A stretch of 64,000 nt of DNA from an uncultured Alphaproteobacteria bacterium (GTDB taxonomy: Bacteria > Pseudomonadota > Alphaproteobacteria > RF32 > CAG-239): the NCBI GenBank assembly GCA_944393175.1, contig CALXZH010000029.1:1-64000 (forward strand), read 5' to 3'. The notes beneath the pieces are model-generated. The model was not told where the DNA came from, ran no database searches, and saw only the letters and a list, made by a program, of their open reading frames with translations. This document shows positions 49,894 through 59,353 of the stretch, piece by piece (within the stretch, counting starts at the first letter, position 1; every line of letters begins with the position of its first letter). The translations under genes and the position numbers were made by a program.

Positions 49894-50523
49894 TTAGAAT
49901 ACGTAACGGAGACCGCCGTAAACTTCGTGGTTGTGAATATCACCATCGGCAATTTCACCCATATCATAGTAACGATAACCAATATCAATGTTGAAACGAG
50001 TGGTAACTTGTGCCGAAATACCGCCGCCGACAGACCATGTAAAGTTGTCTTCTTTATATTCAACATTCGGCAAGCCGGTGTTTTTGAAAGTGTATTCCAA
50101 ACGTGTGATACCAAGACCGGCGGATACGTACGGGGTAAACATTGTGTAAGGTGATAAATCCCAGTAGACGTTTGCCATATATGATTCTGAAGAAAATTCA
50201 GAGGCTCGTTTGGTTACAAATACATTGGCAATACCTTGAGTTACTTTTGTTTGCGAATCTTCAGCGTCTTCACGATAAACATATTCGGCTTCAACTCGGA
50301 AGTATCCCCAACGATAACCGATAGCACCGCTGAACATCATAGAGTTGTCGTCTATGTCTAATTTTTCGTCCGTTGCGACATTTTCGTCCTTATCGCCAAG
50401 GGTGTGGTTGGCAATACCGCCACGGACCGCAAGGTATGGACCATCGCATGAGGCAAAAGCCGTATTGGCAAGGCATAGAGAAATTGCTAATGCGGAGGCT
50501 GCCATCAAAAATTTATTGTTCAT
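49894..50523 (-). CDS. Outer-membrane beta-barrel protein
   Basis: 209 aa. Signal peptide 1-24 (ends FASCDG). Alternating hydrophobic strands follow, such as YRWGYFRVEAEYVYRE, MFTPYVSAGLGITRLEY and FTWSVGGGISAQVTTRFNIDIGYRYYDM, and it ends HEVYGGLRYVF with the C-terminal Phe recognised by BamA. It looks like an eight-stranded OmpA/Omp25-like barrel. The GGAG site is normal for the host. Confidence 0.85.
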   Translation of the reverse strand: MNNKFLMAASALAISLCLANTAFASCDGPYLAVRGGIANHTLGDKDENVATDEKLDIDDNSMMFSGAIGYRWGYFRVEAEYVYREDAEDSQTKVTQGIANVFVTKRASEFSSESYMANVYWDLSPYTMFTPYVSAGLGITRLEYTFKNTGLPNVEYKEDNFTWSVGGGISAQVTTRFNIDIGYRYYDMGEIADGDIHNHEVYGGLRYVF

Positions 50524-50900
50524 GTTTTAACTCCAAAACTAGATAGAAACTCAAATTTTGTCTAAACATACACTATTTTTTTCTAAAATGCAAGCCTTAA
50601 TTTACAAAAAAATATACTTTTTTATATAACACAAAGGAGTTAACAGCTGATTAATAGTCAGAAGAAAAATTAATTTAGTCTAATTTTTAGATAAACATCA
50701 ATTTGTATAAGTGAAAAAAAGTAAAAAACTAAGGCAAAATTGGATCAAAGCGTCAGAAATAAGAAAAGAATCGGAAAGTTAAAATGTGGTATCTTTTAGA
50801 TTCAGAAAAGGCCGCCGGCAGATGCGGGCGACCTTTTCCTTTTGTTTCATGGTAAAATATTTTTTTGTGCCTGCCGTGGTTGCGGGAGGCGGGTTAAACT
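50524..50900 (-). other. 377-base intergenic region with terminator of the 1169-aa gene
   Basis: AT-rich near the barrel gene. At 50805-50838 AAGG-C-CGCC pairs with GGCG-A-CCTT as an imperfect hairpin; on the minus strand it is followed by TTTT and lies about 60 bases past the stop at 50901. The stretch 50839-50900 is GC-richer and unlike the host intergenic DNA, so it probably marks one edge of the foreign-looking segment. No gene seen. Confidence 0.5.
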
Positions 50901-53900
50901 TTATTTGGTAACAATGGTGTATACCAGCCAACCGGCTTTGTTGTATACCTCTAACTTATTACCCTTTAATGAACCGTATCCTCCTCTTTCCGGGGTTACT
51001 TTAGCGGTGTCATCACCGGTAAAGTTCTTAATCCCAGCCAGAAGAGCCTGTTGCTGTGACATGGCTACGGCCTTAGCAGCACCGTTTTTTGGTTCGGCGA
51101 TGTATGTCCAACCGGTACCGTCTACTGTCAAAGTGGCAGGGAAGAAGTTCCCGTTGTCCAGCTTGGCAGCGCTTCTGATTAGGTCGTTGTCATAGCAAAC
51201 ATCCCAAGTAAAGAAGTGGCTGGTATCACTCCAGTTGTTGTCAAGAATCATCCACTTTCCGTTTTCAAAGTTGATGATGACACATTCACGGAATGTACCA
51301 TTGTTGCCGATGTTGGGGTCATACACCAAAGTCCAACCACCAAAGCCCTTAACAGCGCCCCATTCAGACGGAACATTCGGGTTGACAACCTGCTCAACCA
51401 ACAAGTTGGTCTTGCAAGTTGACGTGAAGTTCTTACCATCAACAGTATAACCTAAGGAACCGGTATGCGGGTAAACGTCATAAGTAACGCCACCGACATT
51501 CTTTGTTCCGGATTTGGTCAGACTGTTTGAATTGTCTGAAGAGTGCGCAATATTGCTGAGGTTAACAGCATCAAAATTAAACTTGATGTTTACACCATCT
51601 TCAACTGCACTGTAAGCTGCGGTTTCAGAAACGGCAGTGTGCGTGTTTTTGAAGACTGTGTAACCTTCCACATATGTTTGCTTGGTCGTGGTCACGGTAA
51701 TGTTCTGTCCGCCGCTTCGGGTAGATTTGCTGGCTGCACCTGCGGTTACGCCGGTGTGCGGTGCTTTGGCTTCTGTTGCTTCTACATCTTTCTCTCCTTC
51801 CGGAGTGATGATGTAGTTTAAGTCAACGTCTGCCTTTGCATTTTCACGGCTTCCGTCAGAATATATTTTGGTATATTCCTGCCATGCGTTCCAGATGTTG
51901 CCTGAAACGTATGAGATGCCGTGATTGCCGTACTCAACGGATTTCAGCTTTTTCTCTTCTTTTTGCTTTTTGAAGATAACCTTGACGGTGTAGTCCTTGC
52001 TGTCAATGAACTTGCCGTTCATTACAGATGTGAACAATTTCCGCTCATAGTTATTTTCATCTGCCAAATCAGAGAAAGTACCGCTGACCTCGTTGAACTG
52101 CCACTCAAATACGGTGAAATCTATCTCTTGACCGAACTCGTCGGTATAGATGACTTCGTCCCAGTACCCAGTGAATACGTGAGTCGATTGGCTCGTGCGG
52201 GTAACAGCTTCTTTCTTATAGCTGTAAACGGTGTAAGCACCGTCTGTAGTTTCAGAAGTCTGTACCTTGTTGCCGTAGCTCGGTTCCAACTTACTAATAT
52301 TCAGAGAAGAGACAATTTTCTCTTCATCTTGAGGAGTGTTGGTATAGAACGTAACGTTGTGTCCTACCTCGCCAATCTCCTTCTTGGTTCCATCATCATA
52401 AATCGCATATTTGAGGCGATATACGTAGATGGTCTGATTATTAATAACTTTGTATTCTTTCGGTCCGTATTCGTAACGGATTGCGCTTGGATCCTGCGGG
52501 TCGTCACCGTTGATGCTGGCGCGGAGCAGCTGTGTCGGCTTAATCGGTGTGATGGTTTCAGCCAGATTGAACTGATAGTGAATTGTATCAGTATAAATCT
52601 GGTTCTTATCATCTCCCTCGTTCTTAGCCGATTTTGCGAACTTCATCCAGTTTAGAGTCCATGCCGGAACCTTAACCTCATCTGACAAGCCGTCCTCATC
52701 GGTGTAGATAACACTTTCAGGAACATAAGCCTGAAGAGCATTATTAAATCCGACGTACTCAAATGTATTTGAGTACTGACATGTTTGCCATTTGAAGTTG
52801 CCATTCTCGGTAGCCTCTTTCTTTACCAGCTTGATGGCGGCTTCCATGCTCTTGCGTGCATAGTCGCGGTTCTTAACCTGGATTGGGTTCTCAGTCGTGA
52901 CGCGGTAGTTCGGGTCAAAAACCAAATTGTAGATGGTGTCTCTTGAACCATCGTTGTATTTGGTTTCTTTATCGAACTCGATGATAACCTTGTCCCCGTT
53001 AATCTTGGGTCGCTCGTTGATGACGTCAATGGCAATTTTGTTTTGCCCGTCTTTCATCTTCCACAACTCAGCCTGACCTTTGTAATTGTCAGAACGAGAG
53101 TTAAAGGTAGCTAAAATAGTTGATGTCAACAATTTGCGGCTTTGACCGTCCATTTCCGGCATATCTGTTGCTTTTGCGGGTTGGTCTTTAAATGACCATT
53201 CGCGCTTTTCAAATTGATGCTCAATACCAAGCGAGTCAACCACGGTTGCCTGCTCTGATTGTCCATCAAAAGTGAATTGAGCCTTGTTCGTACGAGTGAC
53301 GAACTTTTGGCTATACTTGCGGACAGATATGTTGAACCCACGCGGATCTGCCTCACCATACGCAATATTGCTGTATTTTTCCGGACTTAAGTCCTCAATG
53401 TTAAAGTCAGCAACTTTAACCGGGACTTGGTAAGCAGGAGTATCAACACGGCAATAGAGCAATACTTCCGGACGGTATGCGAGCTTGACCTCACCAGTGG
53501 ACAGGAGCTTTTCAAACTGTATCCAAGCCTTAGATACGGTTATCTTCTGGCTGGTTTCAGTTGAGATTGAATCCTTAACGAATTCAAAGCCCTTCGCCTT
53601 TTCGTTATAGGCAATTACCTCGTCGGGTGTGTCCGGAATATCGGGGTTTTCACCTTCTTTAGCCACCCAGACCTTTTCCCCATGCATGGTGAATTCAACC
53701 TTGCGGTTGTCAACACCATACTGGTCAGTTCCGTAAGCAAGAGCATCGTTAAACACAAAGTCTATACGATACTTTTGGAACTCGGCGGAGTCTTGATTGA
53801 GGTACACCGGTTTCACTTCCGCCAGTTGACGCTTCGTCCAGTGGTTCTTGCAAAGTTCATTAAACTTCACGCCTTTGATGGTGACAGACTCATCAGAGCA

Positions 53901-54410
53901 AGTCTGTTCATCAATGGTTGAAAGTTTGAAAACTTCGCCGCCTTGCTCCCCATTAAAGGAGTAGGCGCGAACCACGCGTCCGTCTTGCAAAGTGGTTGAT
54001 TCCTCATTCCACTTCTCAAAGACTTTTACTGAACGGGCATAACGTGTCCTTTTCAGACCATAACCCTTGACTGTGTTAGTCACGGTGTAGGCTGCAGAGT
54101 CTCGTTTCACCGAGCCGTCGGTGTAAAACACGTCGGCTATAAACTGGTGAACAGACTTGGCCGAAATCAGGGCTTCATAATTGCCCTGTGGCACGTTCAC
54201 CGCACGGGTTTTAATCTCGGCGTTGTCAGCAGTATAGCTGTTAACAACGTTTTCGGTGCAGTTGTTTCTTTCAACTGACTCAACTGTCGGGTCGGTGGGC
54301 TTGATGTTTGGCTCATCCCCGTAGATTTCGCTACCGGAGCAGTTCCAAAATACTACTGTGCAGAGAGCTACTATCGTAGCCGCAACTGCAAAATCAAAAA
54401 ACTTTTTCAT
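50901..54410 (-). CDS. Very large modular surface lipoprotein, Bacteroidota-like
   Basis: 1169 aa. A type II signal is proposed: hydrophobic residues 7-22, then Cys24 in FWNCSGSE, followed by an acidic stretch. The lipobox is non-canonical (W and N before C). The body is beta-rich, with YxDGS/T-type turns at about 96, 485, 671 and 850. Two clear internal repeats, about 372-460 and 737-822, share F-G...V.D..G.E..F...EW.F...RKL.TS. The last 157 residues (from PSEWG at 1014) match the C-terminus of the 629-aa protein. No Shine-Dalgarno site: the leader is a long A-rich run. Function unknown; adhesin or surface-layer roles are possible. Confidence 0.8.
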   Translation of the reverse strand: MKKFFDFAVAATIVALCTVVFWNCSGSEIYGDEPNIKPTDPTVESVERNNCTENVVNSYTADNAEIKTRAVNVPQGNYEALISAKSVHQFIADVFYTDGSVKRDSAAYTVTNTVKGYGLKRTRYARSVKVFEKWNEESTTLQDGRVVRAYSFNGEQGGEVFKLSTIDEQTCSDESVTIKGVKFNELCKNHWTKRQLAEVKPVYLNQDSAEFQKYRIDFVFNDALAYGTDQYGVDNRKVEFTMHGEKVWVAKEGENPDIPDTPDEVIAYNEKAKGFEFVKDSISTETSQKITVSKAWIQFEKLLSTGEVKLAYRPEVLLYCRVDTPAYQVPVKVADFNIEDLSPEKYSNIAYGEADPRGFNISVRKYSQKFVTRTNKAQFTFDGQSEQATVVDSLGIEHQFEKREWSFKDQPAKATDMPEMDGQSRKLLTSTILATFNSRSDNYKGQAELWKMKDGQNKIAIDVINERPKINGDKVIIEFDKETKYNDGSRDTIYNLVFDPNYRVTTENPIQVKNRDYARKSMEAAIKLVKKEATENGNFKWQTCQYSNTFEYVGFNNALQAYVPESVIYTDEDGLSDEVKVPAWTLNWMKFAKSAKNEGDDKNQIYTDTIHYQFNLAETITPIKPTQLLRASINGDDPQDPSAIRYEYGPKEYKVINNQTIYVYRLKYAIYDDGTKKEIGEVGHNVTFYTNTPQDEEKIVSSLNISKLEPSYGNKVQTSETTDGAYTVYSYKKEAVTRTSQSTHVFTGYWDEVIYTDEFGQEIDFTVFEWQFNEVSGTFSDLADENNYERKLFTSVMNGKFIDSKDYTVKVIFKKQKEEKKLKSVEYGNHGISYVSGNIWNAWQEYTKIYSDGSRENAKADVDLNYIITPEGEKDVEATEAKAPHTGVTAGAASKSTRSGGQNITVTTTKQTYVEGYTVFKNTHTAVSETAAYSAVEDGVNIKFNFDAVNLSNIAHSSDNSNSLTKSGTKNVGGVTYDVYPHTGSLGYTVDGKNFTSTCKTNLLVEQVVNPNVPSEWGAVKGFGGWTLVYDPNIGNNGTFRECVIINFENGKWMILDNNWSDTSHFFTWDVCYDNDLIRSAAKLDNGNFFPATLTVDGTGWTYIAEPKNGAAKAVAMSQQQALLAGIKNFTGDDTAKVTPERGGYGSLKGNKLEVYNKAGWLVYTIVTK

Positions 54411-54635
54411 TTTTTTTTGTTTTTTTTAGTTAATTATTTTTTGTTTTTTTTGTTTTTTAAAATGAAAAATTGTCTCGGATTTGCTGTCCAAGGCAAAGGG
54501 TTCCTGAATTTGCGGTTCAAGAACATATATCGTGATTCGGACCAAGTAAATTTTTAAGTTTTCACCCTTAAATATTTTACCTCCTAATGATAGACATTGT
54601 AATATGATGACATAATGTATATTTTGTCGAATTTT

Positions 54636-54664
54636 AGTATATATTAGTTTTGCAAAAATTACAA
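54636..54664 (-). promoter_or_regulatory. Putative promoter of the 1169-aa lipoprotein gene
   Basis: TTGTAA, 17-base spacer, TATACT on the minus strand. The pattern fits a proteobacterial housekeeping promoter rather than the TAnnTTTG type of Bacteroidota. Confidence 0.45.
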
Positions 54665-54781
54665 CAAAAACTTATCATTATTTTTAGAAAATCGATATTT
54701 TAACAAAAATGTAACGGTTGAAAACGATAGGGGTGTTTTTGGGTGAATTTTGACAAAAAAGAAAAACGAGTAGATAAAAGA

Positions 54782-54812
54782 AAACGGCGGGAACATATGT
54801 ATCCCGCCGTTT
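54782..54812 (-). terminator. Terminator after the 259-aa barrel gene
   Basis: AAACGGCGGGA and TCCCGCCGTTT pair perfectly around a nine-base loop. On the minus strand it follows the stop at 54831 by about 19 bases and ends in TTTT. Confidence 0.85.
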
Positions 54813-54830
54813 GATAATAATTTGTCCTGA

Positions 54831-55610
54831 CTAGAACAGGAAAGTCAAACTGGCTTTGATGCCTGTCTCATTGACCTTCACTGTCAGGTCGCCTGGTTTG
54901 TCCACCTCATAGGTGCGCCAGCTTCCCGAAATTGTCAGGTAAATCGGACATTTGATGCTATAGGGCTTTTTGTCCCTAAGCTGACCGTCGCGGCCATACA
55001 GTTTGACTGTCGGTCGCTTGGTCGTGTTCCCGATCTTAATTTTCAATCCGCCGTTTACCCCCAAAGTCAGCGCATTGCTGTGCTGATTGTGGTTACGCGG
55101 TTCACCGTCGAACACCACGCCGGTGTCGACCGTAAAATATTTGTAACCGACTGTTGGGCCGGCGAAAATTTTAAAAGTTTCGCTTCCGAATTCGAAGTTT
55201 TCTCTTGCCTCAACGCCGTAAGACGTATAAGACAATCCGTCAACCTCTACCTGCCCTGCATATACAAAGGCTTCCGGCGCGAAACATCTAATCCCAGCTC
55301 CCTGGTAGCCAACTTTCAATCCGGCTTCGTAGCCGTGGTTGAAGTTGTAACCTCCTTCAGCTCCGATAAGGAAACCACGGCGGTTAGTAACTTCCAACTT
55401 GTTTGAAGTTGGCTGGTTTTCAGTTTGCCAAGCAAAGTCCTTATTGGCTTTGTCGGCAATAGAGGCCTGAATGGCTTTTAAGTTAAGCACATTCAAGCGG
55501 TCAAGCTGAGTCTGGGTTAATGACTGTGCTGCAGTGTTTGCAGCGAAAAAGAATGAAATAACTGTTGCGAAAATAGCAACCGCGTAGGTTGCAAAATTTT
55601 TCTGTGTCAT
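54831..55610 (-). CDS. Outer-membrane beta-barrel protein of the lipoprotein cassette
   Basis: 259 aa. The signal peptide ends near FFAANTAAQS. A helical stretch (LTQTQLDRLNVLNLKAIQASIADKANKDF) is followed by barrel-like strands (GFLIGAEGGYNFNHGYEAGLKVGYQG, FKIFAGPTVGYKYF, ALTLGVNGGLKIKI) and a C-terminal aromatic residue (SLTFLF). The leader has no Shine-Dalgarno site and is A-rich. It lies 44 bases after the 629-aa lipoprotein gene and is probably co-transcribed, so the two may work together at the surface. Confidence 0.8.
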   Translation of the reverse strand: MTQKNFATYAVAIFATVISFFFAANTAAQSLTQTQLDRLNVLNLKAIQASIADKANKDFAWQTENQPTSNKLEVTNRRGFLIGAEGGYNFNHGYEAGLKVGYQGAGIRCFAPEAFVYAGQVEVDGLSYTSYGVEARENFEFGSETFKIFAGPTVGYKYFTVDTGVVFDGEPRNHNQHSNALTLGVNGGLKIKIGNTTKRPTVKLYGRDGQLRDKKPYSIKCPIYLTISGSWRTYEVDKPGDLTVKVNETGIKASLTFLF

Positions 55611-55654
55611 AAGGCTTTTATTTTTATTGTTTTTATTTTTTGTTTTTTTTATTC

Positions 55655-57544
55655 TTATTTAACAAGGCAATTGATGCTGAAAACATCAGTTACCTTGTCG
55701 TCAACATTGAAACAAGTCACGGTCAGAATCTTCTTACCGTTAATTGTTTCAAATTTTTCAGTGTAGTCAACTACCGGTGTCGGTTTTGCGGTGTTGTCTT
55801 TTGTGAAATTCTTGATACCGCTAGCTACCGCTAACTGATCACTCATTTCAACAGCAAAGTTAACACCTATCTTGGTTTCTACCAAGACCGTCCAACCATT
55901 AGCATCGATGTCAATGGAAGCAGGGTATACTATACCATCTTTATAAGCTCCTGCAGACTTACGAGAATCATCGTATATCTGATCAAAGCTCATAAATGCT
56001 GAAGATACCGTCTTCCATTTCTTATCAATAACACGGAGCTGGCCTTTTGTTGTCCGAACAGTCAGACAAGTGTGCCAAACAACGTTGTTGTTGATTGTCT
56101 CGAAGATACGGGTCACTCCGATAACACCGGTGATTTCACCCCATTCGCTAGGAATGGTGTTTTCATCGGCAACAGGAGTGGTCTCTTCGTTCTCGTCCTT
56201 GTTCTCGTCCTCTGCCGGAGTTTCCGGTTCCTCCTTGGGTAACTCCCGAACTACGTTCACAATACCATCAGTGTGGAAGTTCTGATGGTTGAAAAGAATG
56301 TTAGCTTTAACGACGTTGCGTTCATAGCTGTTCTTTTCATCCTTTGTGGTCGTCTGTTCGTGGTTCCCCGGTGTTACACTCTCCTCAGGTGCGAGGAAAG
56401 TGAAACTCTTACCGTTGATGAGGATGTAACCCTCATGGTGGTAAGAGGTGAGAACCTCGTCGAAATCACTAAATGAGAAGGTGGTCATAGTGGTGACCTT
56501 GCGTCTCATTGCCACAACGCCTTTGGAGGCGTTGGAATCAGAGCATTTCTCATACTCGGTCGCAGACGTAGTCTTTGACCAAGTAGTTGACTTCGACGGA
56601 CCTTCCGTCTTAGCCGGGGCGGTCCACTCAGTAGGAAAGCTCCATCCGAATGGCATAGCCATCCAGAAGTCGATCTCCTCTGTTTCTCCGTTGTTCCATG
56701 TACACAACAGAGTCATAAATGACTTCTGCTGGTCCATGTCAAACCAACGAGTTACGAAAGTAGCATCTACGATGCTTTCTTTCTCAACTGTCGGTTCTTC
56801 TTCGGGGATCGTATCCTGCGGCTCTTCGGGAATTTCCGGCTCTTCCTCTACCTGTTGGTAAAGGAAAGTTCCGCGAACCGTGAAGGTTTTTTCGAAACTC
56901 TTTTTACCACTGAGGCTAACCTCAGTGTAATATGCCTTGTGAGGCATAGCAAAAGAATCACGTTCAATCTTATTGGCTTCATCAGCCATTTCGACGAACT
57001 TCACAGTGGTTAATTCCGGCATAGCTTTGATTGAGTCAATGCTGACATAAGCCAGCTGTGACTTTTCGCCATCGATGTACACGTAGCCATTCAGCCAACG
57101 TGTTGACATTTCGATGGTGGTCTCAGCGAAAACCTCTGTAATGGCTCTGTCGTGAGCAAATACAGTTGTATCTGCCTTTGACAAAGCGTCGCAGAGATCC
57201 TCAACTTCTTCACCGAGAGTTACCTCTGCTGCGTCGAAAGATTTGGACTCACGGAGGACTTCTTTAACTGACCAGTTTATAGTTGCAGGTAGCTTCACCC
57301 GCAAAGATTTCTTTTCGTACTCTGTGTACTCTGTTACGGAAGTAACGTCGTCCACAAAGCTGTTTTCTTTCTCAACCCAGTTGTGCTCCAGGTAGGTATT
57401 ATCTACGCTGGTGCTAACTTCCGGGGTAATTGGATTTTCACGAGTTTCACCAATCAGGTCGGAACCTGAACATGAAGAGAAACTAACTGCTGCGCAGATC
57501 ACCATCATGATAGCGATAACTGCATAAAATCTTTTTGCTGCCAT
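55655..57544 (-). CDS. Large surface lipoprotein, paralogue of the 1169-aa protein
   Basis: 629 aa. Signal: hydrophobic residues 8-22, then Cys25 in FSSCSGSDLIGE, followed by an acidic stretch reminiscent of Bacteroidota lipoprotein export signals. Beta-rich body with a Pro/Glu hinge (about 235-255, EEEPEIPEEPQDTIPEEEP) and a second Glu/Pro hinge before residue 465. Residues 465-629 match the 1169-aa C-terminus: PSEWG, a ...YD..R..A block, YPASIDIDANGW, the EMSDQLAVASGIKNFT block and TAKPTP. The A-rich leader has no Shine-Dalgarno site. Function unknown. Confidence 0.8.
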   Translation of the reverse strand: MAAKRFYAVIAIMMVICAAVSFSSCSGSDLIGETRENPITPEVSTSVDNTYLEHNWVEKENSFVDDVTSVTEYTEYEKKSLRVKLPATINWSVKEVLRESKSFDAAEVTLGEEVEDLCDALSKADTTVFAHDRAITEVFAETTIEMSTRWLNGYVYIDGEKSQLAYVSIDSIKAMPELTTVKFVEMADEANKIERDSFAMPHKAYYTEVSLSGKKSFEKTFTVRGTFLYQQVEEEPEIPEEPQDTIPEEEPTVEKESIVDATFVTRWFDMDQQKSFMTLLCTWNNGETEEIDFWMAMPFGWSFPTEWTAPAKTEGPSKSTTWSKTTSATEYEKCSDSNASKGVVAMRRKVTTMTTFSFSDFDEVLTSYHHEGYILINGKSFTFLAPEESVTPGNHEQTTTKDEKNSYERNVVKANILFNHQNFHTDGIVNVVRELPKEEPETPAEDENKDENEETTPVADENTIPSEWGEITGVIGVTRIFETINNNVVWHTCLTVRTTKGQLRVIDKKWKTVSSAFMSFDQIYDDSRKSAGAYKDGIVYPASIDIDANGWTVLVETKIGVNFAVEMSDQLAVASGIKNFTKDNTAKPTPVVDYTEKFETINGKKILTVTCFNVDDKVTDVFSINCLVK

Positions 57545-57971: not shown

Positions 57972-58023
57972 GTGAAAAAAATGAGGATTTTCTTTGTTTA
58001 TTTGTCAAAATGTGACAAAATGC

Positions 58024-58051
58024 TTGCAAGCAAGTGCAAAAGTTTTATACT
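58024..58051 (+). promoter_or_regulatory. Putative promoter of the 312-aa gene
   Basis: TTGCAA at 58024-58029, a 16-base spacer and TATACT at 58046-58051. Transcription would start near 58058, downstream of the longest possible start codon, which supports the ATG at 58110. Confidence 0.5.
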
Positions 58052-58109
58052 TAGGGCAATTTTGAAATGTGAAAAAATTTTGTGCGCAAAAAAAGGTGTG
58101 TTTTGTGAA

Positions 58110-59048
58110 ATGAGGAAAGGTAACTTAACTGAAAAAATACAAAAATTATATCGGGCAAAATCCCCTGATTTGAAAAAAATAGTCATAGGCTTGGGGTTGG
58201 TGAGCGCGTTCGGGGCCGGATATCAGCTCAATGAAGCTCGTTGGCAAGCCTTGTCGGCGCAAAAAGATAAAACCCAAAATATGCAAAAAAATGCTTGCTC
58301 GCAAACAGCTAAAACTGCAACTTTCAGAGTGGATGAATTTACGCCGGAAGGAGTGAAAATAGCAGAACTGAACGCAATAGATAATTTGGGATTGGTTAAT
58401 CCCGACTCGGCAAAGTTTTTGGCCTATAAAACAGATAGCTTAAACCCTGCTAATGTGGCAAAAATTGCCAAACAAAAAAATAATAAAGGCGAGGTTATTG
58501 CTGATAAACTCAGTTTCGGCGAAATCGAAAAGATGAAAAATAATTTGGCTTTGGCTATGAGCGCTTGCGATACCTTAAAAGGCGAAAAATTTTTGAAAGC
58601 CAAAAAACAATATTATGATTTGGTCTGTATGGAAATTTATAAATGCGCGAAATATGGCGCAAATCCAGATTTGTGGCACAAAAATGACCAACAGTTAAGG
58701 CTAACAGTGCTGAAAAAAGTCGGTTTGATGAATGTAAGACTAAATGTGTTGAAAAAGCTTAAAACTAAGTCAGCTTACCCTGAAGATGAGTTTATTCGCG
58801 ACTTTTATCGGGCGAGAATGGCTGCATCTTTGCGGCAGGAAAGAAAAGTCAGAAAAGAAATAAATGACAGCGTAAACAGCCTGATTATCGCCAGCAATCA
58901 AGTGGCAAAAAAAGCTTTGAAAAGTAAAAAAGATTCTTTGAAAAAAGCTCTCTATATCGCGGCGGAAAATAAACAAAAGGTGCAGGCGGATAGTTTGATT
59001 AAAACCTTTTGTTTTAGAAATCTGAAAAATTCTCGTTGGGGACAATAG
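58110..59048 (+). CDS. Hypothetical membrane-anchored helical protein
   Basis: 312 aa from the ATG at 58110. A membrane segment lies at residues 20-38 (KKIVIGLGLVSAFGAGYQ). The rest is highly charged and helical, with many Lys and repeated DSL motifs near the C-terminus (KKDSLKKALYIAAENKQKVQADSLI). The Shine-Dalgarno site is weak (AAGGTG 15 bases away). A frame extends upstream to 57972 but crosses the likely promoter. I do not recognise the family. It borders the foreign-looking cassette and may or may not belong to it. Confidence 0.65.
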   Translation: MRKGNLTEKIQKLYRAKSPDLKKIVIGLGLVSAFGAGYQLNEARWQALSAQKDKTQNMQKNACSQTAKTATFRVDEFTPEGVKIAELNAIDNLGLVNPDSAKFLAYKTDSLNPANVAKIAKQKNNKGEVIADKLSFGEIEKMKNNLALAMSACDTLKGEKFLKAKKQYYDLVCMEIYKCAKYGANPDLWHKNDQQLRLTVLKKVGLMNVRLNVLKKLKTKSAYPEDEFIRDFYRARMAASLRQERKVRKEINDSVNSLIIASNQVAKKALKSKKDSLKKALYIAAENKQKVQADSLIKTFCFRNLKNSRWGQ

Positions 59049-59353
59049 TCTGCCTTTAATCGTATGCGTCTTCCTTATACTCATAAAAAACAAAATTTGT
59101 GGGTAGAATCGAAGGGTTAGAATTTTTTGCTTGAAGAATCAATAGATATGTTATAGATTCGCGGCAGTTTGAGCGGATGCGCTCTTTTGAGCCTGACTTC
59201 CGGCTGCTCCGCGGATTTTGCGGTGTCGGGGTGTGCGAATCGCCATGCTGTCGATGCTCCTTAAAACGCGTTATAGCCGATGAGGTGACTATGGCCGCAA
59301 GTGGGCGTATCCTTAGTTTTAACCTTAATAGCTAATAGGAGCTTATATATACC
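59049..59353 (+). promoter_or_regulatory. Structured leader of ppdK with two mini-ORFs
   Basis: An extended -10 promoter is likely: TTGAAG at 59131-59136 and TG-T-TATAGA at 59149-59157. The following 190 bases are GC-richer than the surroundings and hold several hairpins: GAGCG-GATG-CGCTC followed by TTTT, then CCGC-GGATTTT-GCGG. Two tiny frames follow, 59245-59283 (12 residues, MLSMLLKTRYSR) and 59291-59335 (14 residues, MAASGRILSFNLNS, with GAGGTG upstream). The second ends 18 bases before the ppdK ATG. No known riboswitch is recognised. Confidence 0.5.

Follow-up and report, generated by a model that had tools for sequence, protein, structure and literature searches.

How did a block of genes for large lipoproteins with Bacteroidota-like features come to lie in the DNA of an uncultured gut alphaproteobacterium? 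The window, i.e., the whole 64 kb stretch of DNA that was analysed (G000:C29), comes from a source genome of 1.63 Mb in 36 contigs. A preliminary description explained the block either as a surface system transferred from Bacteroidota or as a join of two genomes made during assembly; what it had seen is real, but neither explanation holds in the form given. The reading favoured here, with moderate confidence, is that the block is a native, vertically inherited and fast-diverging surface-lipoprotein cassette of a family of gut Alphaproteobacteria, located mostly between ppdK and the OMP/fliP-atp region. At the sequence level, its lipoproteins have secretory signal peptides that end in a lipidation Cys followed by an acidic stretch, contain modules that are repeated or shared between them and, in most loci, have a barrel-type protein next to them. 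Their genes have an upstream element that is conserved, and start without a Shine-Dalgarno (SD) sequence after an A-rich leader.

Genes and protein modules of the cassette

The gene layout was as first described. Three genes follow one another on the minus strand: P0003 (55655-57544), a predicted lipoprotein of 629 aa; P0002 (54831-55610), a signal-peptide protein of 259 aa resembling the small outer-membrane beta-barrel type; and P0001 (50901-54410), a predicted lipoprotein of 1169 aa. The lipidation Cys after the signal peptide is Cys25 in P0003 (mature start C-SGSDLIGE) and Cys24 in P0001 (C-SGSEIYGDE), so that both large lipoproteins have the C-S-G-S-acidic start reported earlier; close homologues have canonical boxes, such as FGAC. 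Neither P0001 nor P0003 has a significant match in Pfam, PHROG, NCBIfam or PADLOC, and the PADLOC scan for defence genes gave no match. The claim that nothing else in the window resembles the block was also correct: P0001 and P0003 resemble only each other (the second match being the C-terminus of P0003), and the same applies to the rest of the genome.

The similarity of the two lipoproteins lies in a C-terminal module of about 150 aa (hhalign probability 99.0, 39–40% identity), which covers residues 1013-1168 of P0001 (50907-51374, minus strand; leave-one-out HMM 72.7 bits) and residues 465-624 of P0003 (55673-56152, minus strand; 46.5 bits). It was found in 15 of the 152 family genomes, and leave-one-out profiles support it in genera g1, g10 and g11, and weakly or not at all elsewhere. 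P0001 also contains a repeat module of about 160 aa in two copies, at about residues 289-448 (53067-53546, minus strand) and 663-822 (51945-52424, minus strand), which align to each other by hhalign with a probability of 99.2 (E 1.4e-19). This module recurs in genera g10 and g12 (probability 98.7–98.9) and in g9 (95.2). The lipoprotein modules have no Pfam match. AlphaFold models of P0001 and P0002 reach a pLDDT of only 31, and no fold is therefore claimed beyond the profile matches. Two candidate similarities were rejected: matches to PDB thiolase profiles had E-values of only 0.5–0.9, and that of the pknD propeller to the C-terminal module (E 0.0014 over 45 residues), in which no stretch is significant alone, was taken as chance.

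Export signals and the barrel-type partner

The presence of at least two acidic residues among the six that follow the lipid Cys is a working criterion for the Bacteroidota export signal (PMC12578637). Of the 32 large lipoproteins of the loci, 27 have this feature; among the other lipobox proteins it occurs in 5 of 28 (p about 1e-7). In this comparison the sequences are not independent, at least two of the five positives are themselves cassette-type and a few controls are probably not lipoproteins. Not every lipoprotein of the family has the acidic motif. Cassette lipoproteins resemble the Bacteroidota surface lipoproteins that carry a lipoprotein export signal (LES) in having acidic residues directly after the lipid Cys, often with a polar residue at +2; the LES consensus is SDDDD in B. 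fragilis and SDDFE in F. johnsoniae (PMC5080379). P0001 (SGSEIY) and P0003 (SGSDLI) differ from it in carrying only one acidic residue each among the six, and the strict minimal motif of C. canimorsus, K-(D/E)2 or Q-A-(D/E)2 after the Cys (PMC5080379), is absent from both, as they start with C-SGS(E/D).

The preliminary description had linked the lipoproteins to an outer-membrane barrel gene, and this agrees with P0002, which has a signal peptide and a match to PF13505 (OMP_b-brl) just under the cut-off (28.2 bits versus 28.7). A relative of P0002 occurs in genus g11 (G016). Across the family, the lipoprotein at the ppdK locus is mostly followed by a signal-peptide protein of 230–290 aa, either secreted or of the barrel type. 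Weak matches to small barrel families recur among these partner proteins, mostly under the Pfam cut-offs, and some partners match nothing; the partner in locus L054 has a score equal to the Opacity cut-off of 21, and that in L104 passes TIGR01414 (21.8 versus 16). The partner barrels fall into five unlinked sequence groups, suggesting that they have diverged past detection or that different barrels were recruited.

P0002 and several other partners are like the OMP_b-brl/Opacity small barrels (PF13505, PF13568, PF02462) in their size, signal peptide and weak profile matches. They are unlike them in that most partner scores are under the curated cut-offs, and regular vicinity to large lipoproteins is not a defining feature of those families. 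Surface-type lipoprotein genes also adjoin an outer-membrane barrel gene in the Slam (SlipAM) systems of, e.g., Neisseria. However, Slam consists of an N-terminal TPR domain and a 14-stranded DUF560 barrel (PMC5449769), whereas P0002 is a single 259-aa protein without a SlipAM match in Pfam. A search of eight family genomes for SlipAM (PF04575) gave no match, and the positive controls likewise gave none.

The cassette lipoproteins are probably displayed on the surface: once lipidated, they would travel to the outer membrane and face outward, with the acidic N-terminus as their guide. The bodies of the lipoproteins, rich in repeats, may form an adhesin-like or coat-like layer, and phage or host pressure could drive their divergence. 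The small barrel may be their partner in the outer membrane, serving to anchor them, space them or help in their placement.

Upstream element and translation starts

An element of about 55 bp lies upstream of P0001 (54585-54640, minus strand) and contains the core GACAAAAT-N4-ATTATGTCA, an imperfect palindrome. A diverged copy is found upstream of P0003 (57758-57800, minus strand; local alignment score 48, shuffled maximum 36), and the element precedes both lipoprotein genes of the window. The full form, also of about 55 bp, is TCTAAAATT(C)GACAAAAT-N3/4-ATTATGTCA-TATTACAATG-TATTATT, and is situated about 90–330 nt before the start. It scores above the shuffled maximum in members of genera g1, g7, g9, g10, g11 and g12, and in G110 of g13; not every family lipoprotein has it. 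The core occurs eight times in the 152 family genomes (reversed control, 0), and seven of these occurrences are upstream of cassette lipoproteins (G000, G003, G004, G006, G110 and, twice, G029). The element is possibly a promoter whose palindrome resembles an operator. The alternative that the palindrome forms a 5′ RNA hairpin was rejected, as the window's own sequence folds no better than shuffles (z -0.46), and a search of Rfam gave no match. The eighth core is an exact copy in G161:C15 (L153, 1501-1521) with no recognised cassette adjoining it, possibly a further member of the regulon or a chance occurrence.

The leaders of all three cassette genes, each on the minus strand, lack an SD sequence and are rich in A: that of P0001 (54411-54450) has an A fraction of 0.82 and an SD duplex energy of +2.0 kcal/mol, and those of P0002 (55611-55650) and P0003 (57545-57584) have A fractions of 0.75 and 0.70. 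By comparison, the genes of the window have a median SD duplex of -5.6, and 64% of them reach -4. With SD called at a duplex of -3 kcal/mol or lower, none of 31 lipoprotein genes has one, versus 74 of 120 native genes of G004 (Fisher 2e-11, a value that overstates the evidence because the lipoprotein rows are related). In the lipoprotein leaders, A is present at -13 in 94%, at -14 in 90% and at -11 in 81%; G hardly occurs from -7 to -20, and not at all at the examined positions from -9 to -20. Each of the ten genera examined shows this pattern. The barrel genes vary, some of them having an SD. SD-less, A-rich starts are also a feature of Bacteroidota mRNAs; in Flavobacterium johnsoniae, A-3 and A-6 are used together with an A-motif further upstream, at -12/-13 (PMC8710568). 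The likeness to Bacteroidota that was first pointed out is supported by the acidic N-termini after the lipid Cys and by these leaders.

The main rival for this part of the evidence is that the A-rich (AAN)n leader is a target of Hfq and small RNAs and not a ribosome-recruitment signal, making the lipoproteins ordinary outer-membrane genes under sRNA control. The distal face of Hfq prefers ARN repeats, which leaders such as aataataacaataaaaaaaataataac would suit; mRNAs of outer-membrane proteins are classic Hfq targets, and the 5′ regions of 90–330 nt that follow the conserved element also favour such regulation. Against this, Hfq sites usually coexist with an SD, and here there is no SD in any of the 31 genes and almost no G from -7 to -20. 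Regulation by Hfq appears less likely than not; it would account for the leader only, and can be true together with a native cassette.

The upstream element that the lipoprotein genes have in common, together with their SD-less leader, points to switching of the lipoproteins as one regulon, at the level of transcription and probably of translation. It may be suggested, tentatively, that this alphaproteobacterial lineage has a Bacteroidota-like surface-lipoprotein programme of its own. Such a programme would comprise a coat or adhesin family that diversifies rapidly, a small barrel dedicated to it, an acidic signal for export, and an SD-independent initiation signal private to these mRNAs, which sets them apart from an otherwise SD-using genome. 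Were this so, N-terminal signals of one type would be found in two unrelated gut lineages, the second of which would also have Bacteroidota-like starts concentrated on those genes. It would allow direct tests of whether an acidic N-terminus suffices for surface export outside Bacteroidota, and of whether an A-motif, instead of an SD, steers ordinary ribosomes to chosen mRNAs.

Distribution and origin of the cassette

A large lipoprotein is encoded upstream of ppdK in 9 of the 15 genera sampled (g1, g2, g7, g8, g9, g10, g11, g13 and g14), and its gene is nearly always divergent from ppdK, an exception being G131. The cassette is missing from this position in the samples of g3, g4, g5, g6, g12 and g15, and in some species of g1, g7 and g13. 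Relatives of P0001 are present in 24 of the 152 family genomes and in 7 of 16 genera. All 40 lipoproteins compared link into one family by single linkage at E<1e-3 (lenient for the most divergent ones, in g8 and g13), with cross-genus E-values down to 1e-72; among the more distant members are 'Azospirillum sp.' MAGs and a MAG from the reticulum of a roe deer. A large, unannotated and variable lipoprotein family of uncultured gut Alphaproteobacteria is now named. In the lipoprotein tree, the grouping is by genus: a single branch separates each of the listed genera, g13 excepted, from the rest, and 9 changes suffice for the ten genus labels versus 24.5 when shuffled. This tree was made quickly and has long branches, so that its deep order is unsure. 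Against the native reading, several genera lack the cassette at the ppdK locus, and copies of the lipoproteins elsewhere in some genomes show mobility or loss. In one genome of g12 (G126:C11, L142), several P0001-like lipoproteins follow one another at a site away from ppdK.

The Bacteroidota-like export and translation signals are either convergent or anciently acquired. If the family's ancestor had acquired the cassette from Bacteroidota and both signals had been retained since, this would explain the acidic residues after the lipid Cys in an SD-using alphaproteobacterium (LES defined in PMC5080379) and, as a second and independent feature, the A-motif near -12/-13 without SD (motif described in PMC8710568). 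Such an acquisition is considered unlikely. In contrast to Bacteroidota LES lipoproteins, these proteins occur in an alphaproteobacterial host, and no relative was found in Bacteroidota or elsewhere; for Bacteroidota this refers to one peptide-pattern scan of 84,980 species genomes, which returned only six proteobacterial MAG loci and is insensitive, since it also missed 22–27% relatives in other genera. The genus-by-genus pattern within the family also argues against acquisition, and signals kept for so long would have to function in the new host, and so could equally have evolved there.

A recent arrival of the cassette, whether transferred horizontally or carried by a phage, is highly improbable. 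Homologues hold the same ppdK-flanking site across genera, in a tree that follows genus, and the synteny in related Alphaproteobacteria and the lack of a Bacteroidota match in the peptide-pattern scan speak, as far as tested, against the transfer first proposed. No match to the cassette was found among the phages, plasmids and viral contigs searched, and no integrase or phage gene is evident between its flanks. The points in favour of transfer are the variable presence of the cassette within genera, a g1-like start of P0001 at the same site in a genome of g13, and base composition. The g13 sequence (G110:C75, L122, 4850-5425; 73% identity) is at a contig end directly upstream of ppdK, with no P0003 or P0002 before it, and represents either an exchange between genera at the ppdK site or a misbinned contig.

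As for composition, a tetranucleotide comparison proposed in the preliminary description shows the cassette block to be the most extreme window in the 64 kb (L1 distance 0.317 versus a mean of 0.162, sd 0.040, for windows of the same size). The richness in C-ending codons noted there applies to two-fold NNY codons (C 0.60–0.68) but not to four-fold codons, where C is below average. The raised C in two-fold codons is partly explained by the strand asymmetry of the window, as genes on the minus strand have values of about 0.4 and those on the plus strand about 0.2; the native neighbour ppdK, on the opposite strand to the cassette, reaches 0.61. In other genera, too, the cassettes mostly have such elevated values, which differ little from those of adjacent genes on the same strand. 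In deviation from the synonymous usage of the window, ppdK (0.353) exceeds the cassette genes (0.11–0.21), making codon bias a weak argument for foreign origin. The compositional remark was correct, yet it is no evidence for foreign DNA. High expression was rejected as the cause of the bias: when the 135 genes compared in G004 are ordered by CAI, with EF-G, S7, S12 and Pal as the reference, the cassette genes take ranks 24, 53 and 105.

Other MAGs of the genus carry the cassette with 70–89% identity and the same synteny. In G004 and G006 it lies complete between ppdK and the OMP/fliP side, with the same gene order and flanks, and in G003 it is split over two contigs. P0001 is conserved over its full length in all three (88–89% identity), P0002 has 85–89% identity in the same three, and P0003 shows 70–77% identity by blastp in G004 and G006, with a homologue also in G003. 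An assembly artefact fusing two genomes, to which the outlying composition might have pointed, can be dismissed with near certainty, because the same junctions recur in separate MAGs and related cassettes occupy the same site in other genera.

On one side, the cassette is adjoined by an OMP gene (49894-50523) with a PF13505 match above the cut-off and a normal SD; this gene is kept near ppdK or fliP in many genera, even where there is no cassette. An ORF of 358 aa (57972-59048) between the cassette and ppdK belongs to no family, and shows 98% identity in G004 but is missing at that place in G006. The region upstream of ppdK (59100-59353) contains a short, promoter-like stretch, TTTTGCTTGAAGAATC-N-TGTTATA, that is conserved across many genera, and the ppdK leader that follows is variable, often hairpin-like, and then continues with AGGAGC.
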